A stretch of 32,147 nt of DNA, taken from NCBI GenBank assembly GCA_022826185.1, contig JAJDVH010000223.1, forward strand, positions 1-32,147. Direction: 5' to 3'. This document shows, in pieces, positions 16,117 to 21,157 of this stretch. Origin of the DNA: Alphaproteobacteria bacterium. GTDB taxonomy: Bacteria; Pseudomonadota; Alphaproteobacteria; Bin95. Below the pieces are notes generated by a model, which made no database searches, was not told where the DNA came from, and saw only the letters and a list, made by a program, of their open reading frames with translations. The position numbers and the translations under genes were made by a program. Position 1 is the stretch's first letter. Each line of letters starts with the position of its first letter.

Positions 16117-16204
16117 GATGCTGTTGTGATGGAGTCTGCGACGAGATGTTCGCCGACCGCATTTGTGAACAGACCGAAGTATCGGTTAACGCTTGGGGCG
16201 AAGG

Positions 16205-16549
16205 ATGAAACGGGTAGGCTTTGTTGTAGCGGCGTGGCATAACGGTCGGCCAAGAAAGACAGGAGCAGGCTATGGGCTGAAGGTGTCAGCCACGGATCTG
16301 GACTGGTTCTTCGATAAGAGTTGGGAGTCCGTCAAATTAAGACTTACAGCGGCAGACAGCGGCGGGATGGTAGCGGTCAATGTCGCCAAACGCTCATTCC
16401 GTGACGGCACATGTCGGGAATTAATTGGCAAGGAGATTGGGCAGTGGTTTCTTTACAATAAATTCGCGCCATGGCAGAAGGGCCGTCCACCACGATTTCA
16501 GATTATTCCAATCCGAAATCAGGAATTCGAGATAAAGCCACTCATCTAG
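16205..16549 (+). CDS. Small orphan protein
   Basis: This protein has 114 residues and no signal peptide or membrane segment. It is not assigned to a family. Visible features are VAAWHNGRPRK near the N-terminus, a GYGLKVSATDLDWFF segment, alternating hydrophobic strands, GTCRELIGKEIGQW, and FAPWQKGRPPRFQ near the end. The compact strand-rich pattern suggests a single small beta-rich domain. ATG 16205 is preferred; a TTG four codons upstream (16193) is possible. It is 10 bp before the secreted protein gene, so the two probably share a transcript. Its base use is intermediate between the island core and the chromosome. Confidence 0.6.
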   Translation: MKRVGFVVAAWHNGRPRKTGAGYGLKVSATDLDWFFDKSWESVKLRLTAADSGGMVAVNVAKRSFRDGTCRELIGKEIGQWFLYNKFAPWQKGRPPRFQIIPIRNQEFEIKPLI

Positions 16550-16559
16550 GGAGTTCATC

Positions 16560-17159
16560 ATGTTGAAATTTGTCATCCACGCAGCACTTTTTGGTATCTT
16601 GTTTGGTGTCTTTAATCCCCTTTATGCTCAGGAGAAATCCAATACGTTGTCTATCGAAAAAGAGCGTCAAAAGGCCTTGAAAGAGTTCGATATGACCGAA
16701 GTTCCAGATTTGGACGCAATTCGGTCATTTGCTTCTGAGTTACTCTCTAAGCCGATAGAACAACAAGAAAAAACACAATTGAGCAAATTAGCCATGGAAG
16801 CTAATCGAGCCGCGAATTTGGTAAATTATATTTATGGAGAATATGATAATTACTATCGAGATAATTACAAGTATGACTTTGTTCAAGAAAAAGTCATTGG
16901 CTCTGCTAAGGAATATGGTAGGATTTTCAATGAATTTGTTAAAATCAGGAATGAAGCATACTTCAATCTTGGGATAATTTCTAGGAACAATGGAGAAACA
17001 ATGGAAGCTTTTCTGTACTTTAGAGACGCATTCAGGCTTAGCGGATTCGATTGTGGCCCTGGGAACAATCCCGAATCTTGTCTACGCTGGCGAGCTGAGC
17101 AAGAGTTACAGAGTCTCTTGGGATTGTCCCACATAAAGGCTTATGTCAGTTGGAAATAG
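16560..17159 (+). CDS. Secreted orphan protein, AT-rich
   Basis: This 199-residue protein begins with a clear Sec signal peptide (basic start, hydrophobic stretch FVIHAALFGILFGVF, probable cut after YAQ or just before it, near residue 24). The mature part is highly helical and rich in Glu, Lys, Asn and Tyr. The C-terminal AYFNLGIISRNNGETMEAFLYFRDAFRLSG looks like one TPR-type hairpin. Two late cysteines (in DCGPG and ESCLRW) could form a disulfide. AGGGAG lies six bases before the ATG and overlaps the previous stop. Codon use is strongly A/T-ending, unlike all neighbours, which points to horizontal acquisition. The function is unknown. Confidence 0.7.
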   Translation: MLKFVIHAALFGILFGVFNPLYAQEKSNTLSIEKERQKALKEFDMTEVPDLDAIRSFASELLSKPIEQQEKTQLSKLAMEANRAANLVNYIYGEYDNYYRDNYKYDFVQEKVIGSAKEYGRIFNEFVKIRNEAYFNLGIISRNNGETMEAFLYFRDAFRLSGFDCGPGNNPESCLRWRAEQELQSLLGLSHIKAYVSWK

Positions 17160-17219: not shown

Positions 17220-17930
17220 TCAACGATCCTCGGCGAAGCCGGAATGCACCCAGGTGATGAAGCTGTAGATGTCGTGGACCGGAAGACCCGTCTCGCGGCG
17301 CACTGCGGCGGCGTAGGGAGCCATGTTGGCGCATTCCAGCACGATGGCGCCGACCTCCGGGCAACGCGCCGCGAGGCGGCGGGCGGCGGCCGTGACATCG
17401 GCTTCGGCGGCGCCCATGTCGAGCCAGGGCTGGTTGCCGATCAGCACGCGGGTGAGTTCGCGCCCTCCCTCGGTGCCTTCGACCGGCGTGTCGGTGGGCG
17501 CGCCGACGGCGGTGAAGTGGTCGTCCCAAAGGCTCTCGCGGCTGACCGTGATCACACCCGTCCGCTTTCCGGGCGGGAGCATGCGGTCCAGCGCCGCCAC
17601 CTGCATCAGGGTCGATGAGGCGACCGGCACGCCGGCATGGGCGGCGAGCTCCGGCTGGAAGAGCGACAGGAAGCCGCAAACGGTGGTGACGGCCGCGGCG
17701 CCGCGGTCCACCAGCCGCCGGGCGGCGTCGAGGAAGTCGCCGTCCAGCCCTTCGGCGCGGCGGCGCACGACCCGCTCCGGCGTGGCGCCGCGCACGATCT
17801 CGTAGAGCACCGGGAAGGGCCAGGTGTCGCCATTGCCCATGTCGCCCGGCACGCGCGGGAAGCGGGCGTCCAGCATGAGGATGCCGAGCGCCGCCCCGCC
17901 GACGGGCGCGCCTCCGACCGCAACCGTCAT
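17220..17930 (-). CDS. Aspartate/glutamate racemase family protein
   Basis: This is a cytoplasmic protein of 236 residues in the Asp/Glu/hydantoin racemase superfamily, which uses two cysteines as acid and base to invert or transform alpha-carbon centres. Both are present: Cys85 in VTTVCGFLS and Cys200 in VLECANMAPY. The start GILMLDARFPRVPGDMGN and the end VHDIYSFITWVHSGF are typical of the less-studied branch of the family rather than MurI. Its ATG overlaps the stop of the upstream paralogue by four bases. The substrate is unknown. A maleate isomerase or decarboxylase-like activity is also possible within the superfamily. Confidence 0.85.
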   Translation of the reverse strand: MTVAVGGAPVGGAALGILMLDARFPRVPGDMGNGDTWPFPVLYEIVRGATPERVVRRRAEGLDGDFLDAARRLVDRGAAAVTTVCGFLSLFQPELAAHAGVPVASSTLMQVAALDRMLPPGKRTGVITVSRESLWDDHFTAVGAPTDTPVEGTEGGRELTRVLIGNQPWLDMGAAEADVTAAARRLAARCPEVGAIVLECANMAPYAAAVRRETGLPVHDIYSFITWVHSGFAEDR

Positions 17931-18568
17931 CGCGGAAAGACCCTCGGCGCGAGGCTCGCATGGAACCAGGCGAGGAAGCGGGTCCGGTCATAGACGGGCC
18001 GGGCGGTGGCGGCGCGGACATCGGAGGCGAAGGGGCCCATCTCCGGCTCTTCCAGCAGCCAGGCGGCGATGGCGGGCCGGTTGGATGCCGCCTGCGTCGC
18101 CGCATCCAGGAGGCTGTCCCGCGCGCGCTCGATGTCGAGCCTGTCCTCGTCCGCCGCCACGGCGTCGGCCAGATAGCCGGGCGCCGCGATCCTGTCATTG
18201 TCCCCGGAGAAGGCCAGCACGCCGACCTCGGCATCGGGCGGGAGCATGGCTTCGACGAGGCTGCGCTGCGCGGCAAGTCCGCCGGCGAAAGGCGCATCGA
18301 GGGCGTCCGCCAGGTCGAATTCGGCGTTGAAGGCGAGGCCGATGCCTTCCGCGCCTTCATCCAGCAGGCGTTCGGCGGCTTCCAGCGCCACCGTCCGGTC
18401 CGTCTGCTCCAGCACCGCATGGCGCACGCTGAAAGGGAAGCTGCGGGCATTGGCCGGGTCGCCGGGAAGCCGGGGAAAGCGCGTCGGGCGCACCAGCAGC
18501 CCGAGCCGGGCGCCGTAGAAGCTCTTTCCGCCGGATGCGACTGCGCTCACGGTTTCGTTGCCTTCCAT
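17927..18568 (-). CDS. Cysteine-less paralogue of Asp/Glu racemase family
   Basis: This 213-residue protein aligns along its length with the downstream racemase-like protein: GARLGLLVRPTRFPRLPGDP matches the partner's N-terminus, and LLEEPEMGPFASDVRAATAR matches its second active-site region. It contains no cysteine at all. The partner's Cys85 aligns with Phe80 and Cys200 with Glu174. It therefore cannot use the normal two-cysteine mechanism. The reading frame is intact, starts after GAGG, and overlaps the partner gene by four bases, so it is not an obvious decaying pseudogene. A regulatory or structural partner of the active enzyme is the likeliest role, by inference. Confidence 0.8.
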   Translation of the reverse strand: MEGNETVSAVASGGKSFYGARLGLLVRPTRFPRLPGDPANARSFPFSVRHAVLEQTDRTVALEAAERLLDEGAEGIGLAFNAEFDLADALDAPFAGGLAAQRSLVEAMLPPDAEVGVLAFSGDNDRIAAPGYLADAVAADEDRLDIERARDSLLDAATQAASNRPAIAAWLLEEPEMGPFASDVRAATARPVYDRTRFLAWFHASLAPRVFPR

Positions 18569-18660
18569 TCCTGCCTCGCAACGGCCCGCCAGCTTACGGG
18601 GCGCCGCCGGCTCATGCTATAGCGGCTCAGGCGGGTCTGCGGGATCGGAAAGAAGGGCGG

Positions 18661-19866
18661 ATGGCGGACGGCATACCGGGGCGGTCGTCGCGGTTCGAGG
18701 GCCGGCGGGGCCCGCTGGCGGGGCTGCTGCTGCGCAACCTGCTGTTCTCCATCCTGACGCTCGGCATCTACCGCTTCTGGGGGCGCACGCATGTCCGCCG
18801 CTTCGTCTGGCGTCATACCGTGCTGCTGGACGACGCGCTGGAATATCTGGGCACCGGCGGGGAGCTGTTCATCGGCTTCCTGATCGCCGTCGCGGTCCTC
18901 CTGCCCGTGTTCGCCGCCTACTCGCTGCTGCAATTCCTGTTCGCGGACGGGCCCGGCTATGCGCTGCTCGCGCTCGAAATCCTCTACTACCTGGTGCTGT
19001 TTTTCCTGATCCAGATTGCCATCCACCGCATGCGCCGCTACCGGCTGACGCGCACGGCCTGGCGCGGCGTCCGTTTCGGGCTCGGCGGCTCGTCGCTCGC
19101 TTATGCGCGCATCGCCTTCGGCTACGGCCTGCTGACGGCGGCGACGCTCGGGCTTGCCTATCCGTGGATGCGGAGCGCGACTCTCCGTTACTTCGCGCAA
19201 CATGCCTATTTCGGCACGGCGGGTCTCGGTCTTGCACCGAATCCCGTCTGGCTGTTGCGGCGCTGGGCAGCCGTCCCCGGGTCGTTTGCCGGGGCGTTGG
19301 GGCTTTTTGCGATCCTGAATTTCGAAAGCCTCGAAACGATTGCGTTCTTCATCGATCAGGAACTTTATGAGACAACGGATATTGTCCTCGCTTCCATGAC
19401 ATACTGGCCGCTGTTTCTGTTGTTGACGAGCTTTTTCCTCTGGATTTGGTACCGAGCGGTCGAATTCCGGCATATGGTAGGGTGCTTGACTGTCGGCGAT
19501 ACAAACTTGTCGTCTGCGGTCCGGAGCCAATTCGTTTTTGGCCGCTTCTTTGTCTTTTCCCTTGTCATGTTTGCGTTGGGTGCGTTACTCGGTACCGTTG
19601 CATTTTTGATCGCGTTTGTCTCTGTAAGTACCGGGGAGATAGAAGGCGTAATTGCCGTTATGATTGTCTTTGTCCCAGCTCTGTTAGTGCTGCTGTTCTC
19701 CGGAATAGTCCGAATCCTGTTCCTGGACATCCCTCTGTTGAAGCATGCATGCGAGACGCTGGACATCTTGAACGCCGGGGCGCTGGAAGAGGTCGTGCAG
19801 TCCTCCGCCGCCGTGCCGAGCTACGGCGAGGGGACGGCGGAGGCCCTCGATGTCGGCGGGTTCTAG
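18661..19866 (+). CDS. YjgN/DUF898 family membrane protein, copy 1
   Basis: This is an inner-membrane protein of 401 residues with several hydrophobic helices. RNLLFSILTLGIYRFWGRTH near residue 22, GTGGELFIGFLIA, and HRMRRYRLTRTAWRGVRFGL are hallmark blocks of the YjgN (DUF898) family, whose role is not established. A second copy follows directly, with strongly matching N-terminal half and C-terminal tail. The segment from about 19330 to 19750 is AT-richer and much more divergent. ATG 18661 follows AAGAAGGG. A longer frame from 18535 was rejected because it begins in leader sequence. The gene is divergent from the racemase pair. Confidence 0.85.
   Translation: MADGIPGRSSRFEGRRGPLAGLLLRNLLFSILTLGIYRFWGRTHVRRFVWRHTVLLDDALEYLGTGGELFIGFLIAVAVLLPVFAAYSLLQFLFADGPGYALLALEILYYLVLFFLIQIAIHRMRRYRLTRTAWRGVRFGLGGSSLAYARIAFGYGLLTAATLGLAYPWMRSATLRYFAQHAYFGTAGLGLAPNPVWLLRRWAAVPGSFAGALGLFAILNFESLETIAFFIDQELYETTDIVLASMTYWPLFLLLTSFFLWIWYRAVEFRHMVGCLTVGDTNLSSAVRSQFVFGRFFVFSLVMFALGALLGTVAFLIAFVSVSTGEIEGVIAVMIVFVPALLVLLFSGIVRILFLDIPLLKHACETLDILNAGALEEVVQSSAAVPSYGEGTAEALDVGGF
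19789..19866 (+). repeat. Near-identical 3' tail of YjgN copy 1
   Basis: These 78 bases encode the C-terminal tail EEVVQSSAAVPSYGEGTAEA and the final DVGGF, plus the stop. Before the stop they differ from 21080-21157 at three silent positions out of 75. The stop codons differ (TAG here). Confidence 0.85.
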
Positions 19867-19912
19867 CGTGGTTTCCGACACAGGAGCGGCCGTGGCGCCG
19901 GAGCGGCCCGCG

Positions 19913-21157
19913 ATGGCTGACGGCACACCGGCGACGGCATTGCAGGACGCGCGCCAGCCCGCGGCGCGGTTCGAGGGCAAGCTCGGCGATCTGGGCTGGC
20001 TGCTGCTGTGCAACTGGCTGTATTCGGTCCTGACGCTCGGCATCTACCGCTTCTGGGGCCGGACGCATGCGCGGCGGTTCGTCTGGCGCCACACCGTGCT
20101 TCTGGGCGATACGCTGGAATATCTCGGCACGGGCAGGGAGTTGTTCGTCGGATTCCTGATCGCCGTCGCGGTGCTGCTGCCGGTATTCGCCGTCTATACG
20201 CTCCTGCAGTTCGTTCTGGAGGACGCGCCCCGATCCGCTTTCTGGCTGCTCGAAGCACTGTATTTCCTCGTGCTGCTGTTCCTCATCCAGATCGCGATCC
20301 ATCGCATGCGGCGCTACCGCCTCACGCGCACTGCCTGGCGGGGCGTGCGCTTCGGGCTTGGAGGCTCGTCGCTGCGCTATGCCTGCATCTCGTTCGCCTA
20401 TGGCCTGCTGACGGTGGCGACGTTCGGTCTTGCCTATCCCTGGATGCGGGCCGCGACGCTCGGATATTTCGCCCGGTGCGCAAATTTCGGCGCTGCGGAA
20501 ATCGCGCTGGCGCCGAACGCCGGATGGCTCTTTCGACGCTGGCTGGCGGTGATCGCATCGCTGATTGCGGGGGTGGGAGTCTTTACAGCGTTCAATACGA
20601 CGTTCAATCCTGAAGAACTGTGGTCTATCCTGTCCTTCATCGCGCAGGCAAACACCGTAAATTTGGTCCTTGCGTTCGACCGCTTGGCGCTGTCGCCTCT
20701 TGCGGCGTTGGCGCCGGTTCCCCTTGCCTGGGTCTGGTACAGAACGGTGGAATTCCGCCATCTGATCGCCTGCTTGAGAATCGGGGATACGGAATTCCGA
20801 TCGTCGTTCCGGGTCCGATTCGCTTTTTCGCAGGTCGCTATCTTCCTGGTTTTGCTTGTCATGGGAATCGGTCTTCTAATTTTGGTGTTTTTGCTTTTCA
20901 TGATGTTTATCGGGGTTGCATTTGGGACAAATTCGATATTCTTGAACGTGGTGATTATTCTAATTCCTGTCCTTATGCTTTTGTTTTTGCCCGGCATTGT
21001 AAAGACGCTGTATCTGGATATCCCGATGCTTGAACATGCCTGCGAGACGCTGGAAATCTCGAATGCCAGAGCGCTCGAAGAGGTCGTGCAGTCCTCCGCC
21101 GCCGTGCCGAGCTATGGCGAGGGGACGGCGGAGGCGCTGGATGTCGGCGGGTTCTGA
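19913..21157 (+). CDS. YjgN/DUF898 family membrane protein, copy 2
   Basis: This inner-membrane protein of 414 residues is a tandem paralogue of the previous gene. The blocks LTLGIYRFWGRTHARRFVWRH and HRMRRYRLTRTAWRGVRFGL are nearly identical to copy 1. The ATG at 19913 is preferred because the following MADG aligns with the start of copy 1 and GGAG lies nine bases upstream. GTG 19892 or ATG 19850 would add residues that have no counterpart. Its middle and late part is divergent and AT-rich (21 of 60 bases G/C at 20881-20940). The M48 peptidase gene begins three bases after the stop, which suggests one functional unit. Confidence 0.85.
   Translation: MADGTPATALQDARQPAARFEGKLGDLGWLLLCNWLYSVLTLGIYRFWGRTHARRFVWRHTVLLGDTLEYLGTGRELFVGFLIAVAVLLPVFAVYTLLQFVLEDAPRSAFWLLEALYFLVLLFLIQIAIHRMRRYRLTRTAWRGVRFGLGGSSLRYACISFAYGLLTVATFGLAYPWMRAATLGYFARCANFGAAEIALAPNAGWLFRRWLAVIASLIAGVGVFTAFNTTFNPEELWSILSFIAQANTVNLVLAFDRLALSPLAALAPVPLAWVWYRTVEFRHLIACLRIGDTEFRSSFRVRFAFSQVAIFLVLLVMGIGLLILVFLLFMMFIGVAFGTNSIFLNVVIILIPVLMLLFLPGIVKTLYLDIPMLEHACETLEISNARALEEVVQSSAAVPSYGEGTAEALDVGGF
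21080..21157 (+). repeat. Near-identical 3' tail of YjgN copy 2
   Basis: This is the second copy of the 78-base tail, ending in TGA. It encodes exactly the same amino acids as copy 1, although the DNA just upstream of it is strongly diverged. This suggests strong selection on the tail, gene conversion, or both. Confidence 0.85.

Follow-up and report, generated by a model that had tools for sequence, protein, structure and literature searches.

A conserved cysteine-less paralogue encoded directly upstream of a two-cysteine Asp/Glu racemase-family protein is a candidate pseudoenzyme subunit

An overlapping pair of racemase-family genes

The window analyzed here is a stretch of 32,147 nucleotides from an alphaproteobacterial genome (assembly GCA_022826185.1, contig JAJDVH010000223.1). 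On its minus strand gene A is followed directly by gene B, with an overlap of four bases (ATGA). The pair consists of the following genes and features.

17927..18568, minus strand: gene A, cysteine-less PRK07475 paralogue, 213 residues from the ATG at 18568
17220..17930, minus strand: gene B, PRK07475 Asp/Glu racemase-family protein with Cys85 and Cys200, 236 residues
17927..17930, minus strand: ATGA overlap, stop of A and start of B, kept in 7/7 pair-bearing genomes
17941..17945, minus strand: GAGGG within the end of A, a possible ribosome-binding site for B, found by eye
17676..17678, minus strand: codon of B Cys85 in TTVCGF (family mostly TTNCGF), placed by alignment
17331..17333, minus strand: codon of B Cys200 in LECANM, placed by alignment
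18047..18049, minus strand: codon of A Glu174 in EPEMGPFA, in the Cys200 column, invariant in 7 genomes
18329..18331, minus strand: codon of A Phe80, whose match to Cys85 depends on the alignment
18509..18532, minus strand: N-terminal GGKSFYGA of A, family-conserved and kept in A; B has GGAPVGGA
17930..17968, minus strand: C-terminal WFHASLAPRVFPR of A, retaining the tail conserved in the family; the C-terminus of B is WVHSGFAEDR

The first ATG of A (18568) is not common to its relatives, which share a start at codon 7 (GTG or ATG; here GTG at 18550) that yields 207 residues, and hence 207 residues is probably the true length of the protein.

The sequence-only reading of this locus had described two overlapping paralogues, a description borne out by the ATGA overlap, by the match of both proteins to PRK07475 and by their mutual identity of 36–37%. 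Gene B scores 288.5 bits against the NCBIfam model PRK07475 (NF005679), above the curated cut-off of 231 bits, and 39.8 bits against Pfam PF01177 (cut-off 31), and is a member of the family by score and motifs. Gene A scores 95.3 bits against NF005679, below the cut-off, and has no Pfam match; a profile–profile comparison (hhalign) nevertheless identifies it as a clear whole-length homologue of the PRK07475 family (probability 99.9% over 205 columns, E 9e-38). The AlphaFold models of A (pLDDT 42) and B (pLDDT 54) are too poor for structural comparison. From that of B only the superfamily was read: its best PDB matches belong nearly all to the Asp/Glu racemase superfamily, at low TM-scores, with arylmalonate decarboxylase (AMDase) among them. 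Searches of the PDB with the single A and B sequences (phmmer) returned nothing relevant, and a profile search gave weak matches to hydantoin and aspartate racemases.

PRK07475 is described as the bacterial subfamily closest to the algal dimethylsulfoniopropionate (DMSP) lyase Alma1, and as having no DMSP lyase activity (PMC10349084). The Alma1-type lyases of algae and corals share the two-cysteine layout of PRK07475 but are distinguished by D/NCGF and ECTE/Q motifs (PMC10349084); B has VCGF and ECAN and does not match the Alma1-type DMSP lyases in these motifs. Neighbouring genes in the genus encode a DUF898 protein, a carboxylate-amine ligase, an isocitrate/isopropylmalate-type dehydrogenase and an O-acetylhomoserine sulfhydrylase, all in other transcription units, and do not point to a substrate for A or B. 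On one side of the pair, positions 18658-21157 hold two tandem overlapping DUF898 membrane-protein genes and then an M48 peptidase gene. On the other, B is separated from the isopropylmalate-type dehydrogenase gene by an A+T-rich stretch (16193-17159; 38–53% GC, in surroundings of about 70%) that contains two short, unnamed ORFs on the plus strand. As B directly abuts the dehydrogenase gene in the relative L021, this stretch looks like an insertion in the present genome.

Loss of the catalytic site in A and reciprocal losses in B

The two catalytic cysteines that characterize PRK07475 (NCGF and ECTN motifs) are present in sequence and alignment of B as Cys85 and Cys200, as had been claimed, and they occur in all seven genomes carrying B (TTVCGF and LECANM). 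The residue before Cys85 is Val84 instead of Asn (17676-17681) in 7/7 B proteins and in no other collected homologue, the family having mainly Asn, and rarely Ser, Thr or Glu, at this position. Because of this unusual valine beside Cys85, the activity of B is not certain.

The A protein of the window contains zero cysteines, in agreement with the earlier reading, and its orthologues have no cysteine at either catalytic site in 7/7 genomes, with an unrelated cysteine in one relative. Single-copy members of the family, in contrast, all carry both cysteines. The placement of Glu174 at the Cys200 position is upheld by every alignment, and the residue is invariant across the seven genomes. The proposed replacement of Cys85 by Phe80 is less secure, as it holds only under a gapless alignment; both MAFFT and hhalign delete the Cys85 segment in A and leave Phe80 beside or opposite Phe87. 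Neither can A be called full length, since it is missing two conserved stretches that are present in B and in the family, namely ∼12 residues that follow the PFP motif, together with 14–17 residues of the TEGGRE(F/L) segment. His138, Thr128, Ser106 and Asn202 are absent as well.

The positions that A has lost and those that B has lost are largely complementary. The reference set was drawn from 35 single-copy Cys+ homologues and comprised the 80 positions at which at least 90% of them agree, 10 of these positions being terminal and 70 internal. A retains 10/10 terminal positions and 28–29 of the 70 internal ones, and B retains about 63 of the 70 internal positions and 6/10 terminal ones, with the losses Y11G, F228V/A, L232F and P234E/D/I. 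No single-copy homologue among the 35 has lost more than three terminal positions or shows the four-loss set of B; the nearest case is the single-copy L012, in which part of the tail is also lost. Fisher tests give p values of 0.0004 (A) and 0.03 (B) at the 90% threshold and of 0.0001 to 0.04 at other thresholds, values that are descriptive because the test was devised after inspection of the alignment, and that concern one clade. These reciprocal losses are what is new here, and they fit the splitting of one homomer into an A:B heteromer in which A would be non-catalytic.

Conservation, selection and distribution of the pair

The pair is adjacent, with the same overlap, in seven of eight genomes of the genus. 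In the eighth, A and B are both missing, as is the DUF898 gene next to them, and the protein most similar to the neighbouring dehydrogenase shows just 36% identity. No lone A or lone B was seen in these eight genomes, the cysteine-less member being paired with B in 7/7 genomes that have it. A is absent from all six genomes of the family's other genera; G010, from another genus of the same family, carries one single Cys+ homologue. The bacteria of the genus are largely sponge-associated, and records of these same loci include metagenome bins from two sponges, namely Ircinia (jk18x bins; PMC9531527) and Aplysina aerophoba (MPNF, bin95; PMC5649159).

Pairwise dN/dS ranges from 0.14 to 0.25 for A (median 0.21; dS up to 0.85) and from 0.10 to 0.22 for B (median 0.17; dS up to 0.67). 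Variable bases are concentrated at third codon positions in both genes (54/43/126 for first, second and third positions in A; 36/26/127 in B). Given these ratios and this codon-position variation, A is a protein under purifying selection. Stops and frameshifts were looked for in close relatives, and none was found in A or B of the seven genomes, which together with the purifying selection indicates that A is not decaying. With seven orthologous pairs, dN/dS of about 0.2 and a conserved overlap, the pair is more than a chance arrangement, and the earlier notion of a pseudoenzyme encoded just ahead of an apparently active paralogue stands, the former being linked in 7/7 genomes, intact and constrained.

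No genus but this one yielded the cysteine-less member; Cys+ homologues in single copy are widely distributed across Alphaproteobacteria. Among 64 aligned proteins of the class and phylum, a catalytic cysteine is missing solely in the seven A proteins, with one incomplete row (L045) not scorable at the first cysteine site. No other cysteine-less homologue was detected in 385 genomes of the class and 398 of the phylum, and conserved peptides of A, searched against 84,980 species genomes in a scan that reaches close relatives only, matched no more than six loci, all from this genus. In the phylogenetic tree A and B each form one clade (100/100 each), A branching near L028 on a very long branch and B near L009. 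A sister relationship of the two clades is unsupported, yet the AU test does not reject it (p 0.21). The stem of A spans ∼2.3–2.4 changes per column and is followed by slow evolution, a pattern expected for a change of role with later constraint. Tandem arrays of a related Asp/Glu racemase subfamily are found in other Alphaproteobacteria (three genes at L102:667-3000, two at L103:1490-3001); they resemble the A/B pair as adjacent same-strand paralogues of the superfamily but differ in that every copy has both cysteines (SSDCGF/DCGF and ECSM(L)-like motifs).

Explanations for the cysteine-less copy

The best explanation of these observations, to which we give an even chance, is that A and B form, as its two subunits, a heteromeric enzyme of the PRK07475 type within the Asp/Glu racemase superfamily. 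Enzymes of the superfamily can be homodimers of pseudosymmetric monomers, as in OpaE (PMC12661438). The single gene of an ancestral homomeric enzyme would have undergone duplication, or another member of the family would have come to lie beside it; B would have kept the two-cysteine proton-transfer site while its N-terminal YG and C-terminal WF..L.PR.F elements changed, and A would have kept these elements and lost catalysis. The two proteins may then be produced by coordinated translation of a shared message and form a complex in which B supplies the active site and A stabilizes or regulates B. The conservation of a dead copy in this arrangement suggests a partner subunit of a live one; complex formation, the dependence of B on A and the activity of B itself are inferred here from sequence. 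Translational coupling would also be compatible with A and B acting as separate proteins in the same pathway.

A less probable reading makes A an independent protein without catalysis that binds a ligand or regulates, either as a sensor of what B consumes or produces or as the partner of something else, and not a stoichiometric subunit of B. Variation in A is lowest in the segment around Glu174, formerly the second active-site segment (2/16 sites vary against 66/204 overall), as if the cleft were still in use, and co-transcription suits a sensor. Yet A shows neither an extra domain nor a DNA-binding motif, most of the family's substrate-binding residues have disappeared from it, and the terminal losses of B would go unexplained. 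Those losses are accommodated by a further account, which we regard as somewhat improbable, in which pure drift after duplication led B to need A for assembly, and A was retained with no functional gain. Duplication, degeneration and complementation predict reciprocal losses of the observed kind, and such neutral increase of complexity after duplication has been modelled (PMC11066126). The resulting complex would, however, be the same as that of an adaptive heteromer with a different history, and the present data do not separate the two.

A new non-cysteine chemistry in A had also been raised by the sequence-only reading and now appears improbable; in it the invariant Glu174, perhaps joined by Glu176 or Asp37, would do the work of the cysteines. 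The EPEMGPFA segment with Glu174 is invariant across the seven genomes despite dS up to 0.85, and some superfamily members, such as AMDase, work with one cysteine. Against this stand the loss of both cysteine motifs, of all four other residues named above and of the TEGGRE segment, and two deletions inside the conserved core; with only 29/70 conserved core positions retained, a simple exchange of Glu for Cys is unlikely. It is slightly less probable still that carboxylate-based proton transfer or elimination replaces the cysteines in the broader sense that either A is catalytic or Glu174 is lent to a shared A:B site. That A is a pseudogene, an over-called ORF or an ORF on the wrong strand, as its score below the NCBIfam cut-off and lack of a PF01177 match might suggest, is ruled out by open frames in seven genomes, the low dN/dS of every pair, third-position variation and the whole-length profile match.

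The heteromer of A and B would find its closest functional parallels in pairs where a dead paralogue activates its live counterpart, as in AdoMetDC/prozyme (PMC5201418) and DHS/DHSp (PMC3663545). The likeness to these trypanosomatid pairs, AdoMetDC/prozyme and DHSc/DHSp, lies in a dead paralogue needed for the activity of the live one and is a comparison of how they work only, as they have other folds and other chemistry, are eukaryotic and are not encoded by an overlapping gene pair. As with prozyme, A is conserved and co-occurs with its live paralogue. Such paralogous pairs of dead and live enzymes are best studied in eukaryotes. To our knowledge, no pseudoenzyme partner has been described in the cofactor-independent racemase superfamily, and a limited search of the open literature returned none. 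If A and B form a heteromer, A would be, as far as we know, the first pseudoenzyme partner in this superfamily. An overlapping pair confined to one genus, with single-copy two-cysteine relatives as the ancestral state, would then offer a test of the transition from a homomer to an obligate heteromer.
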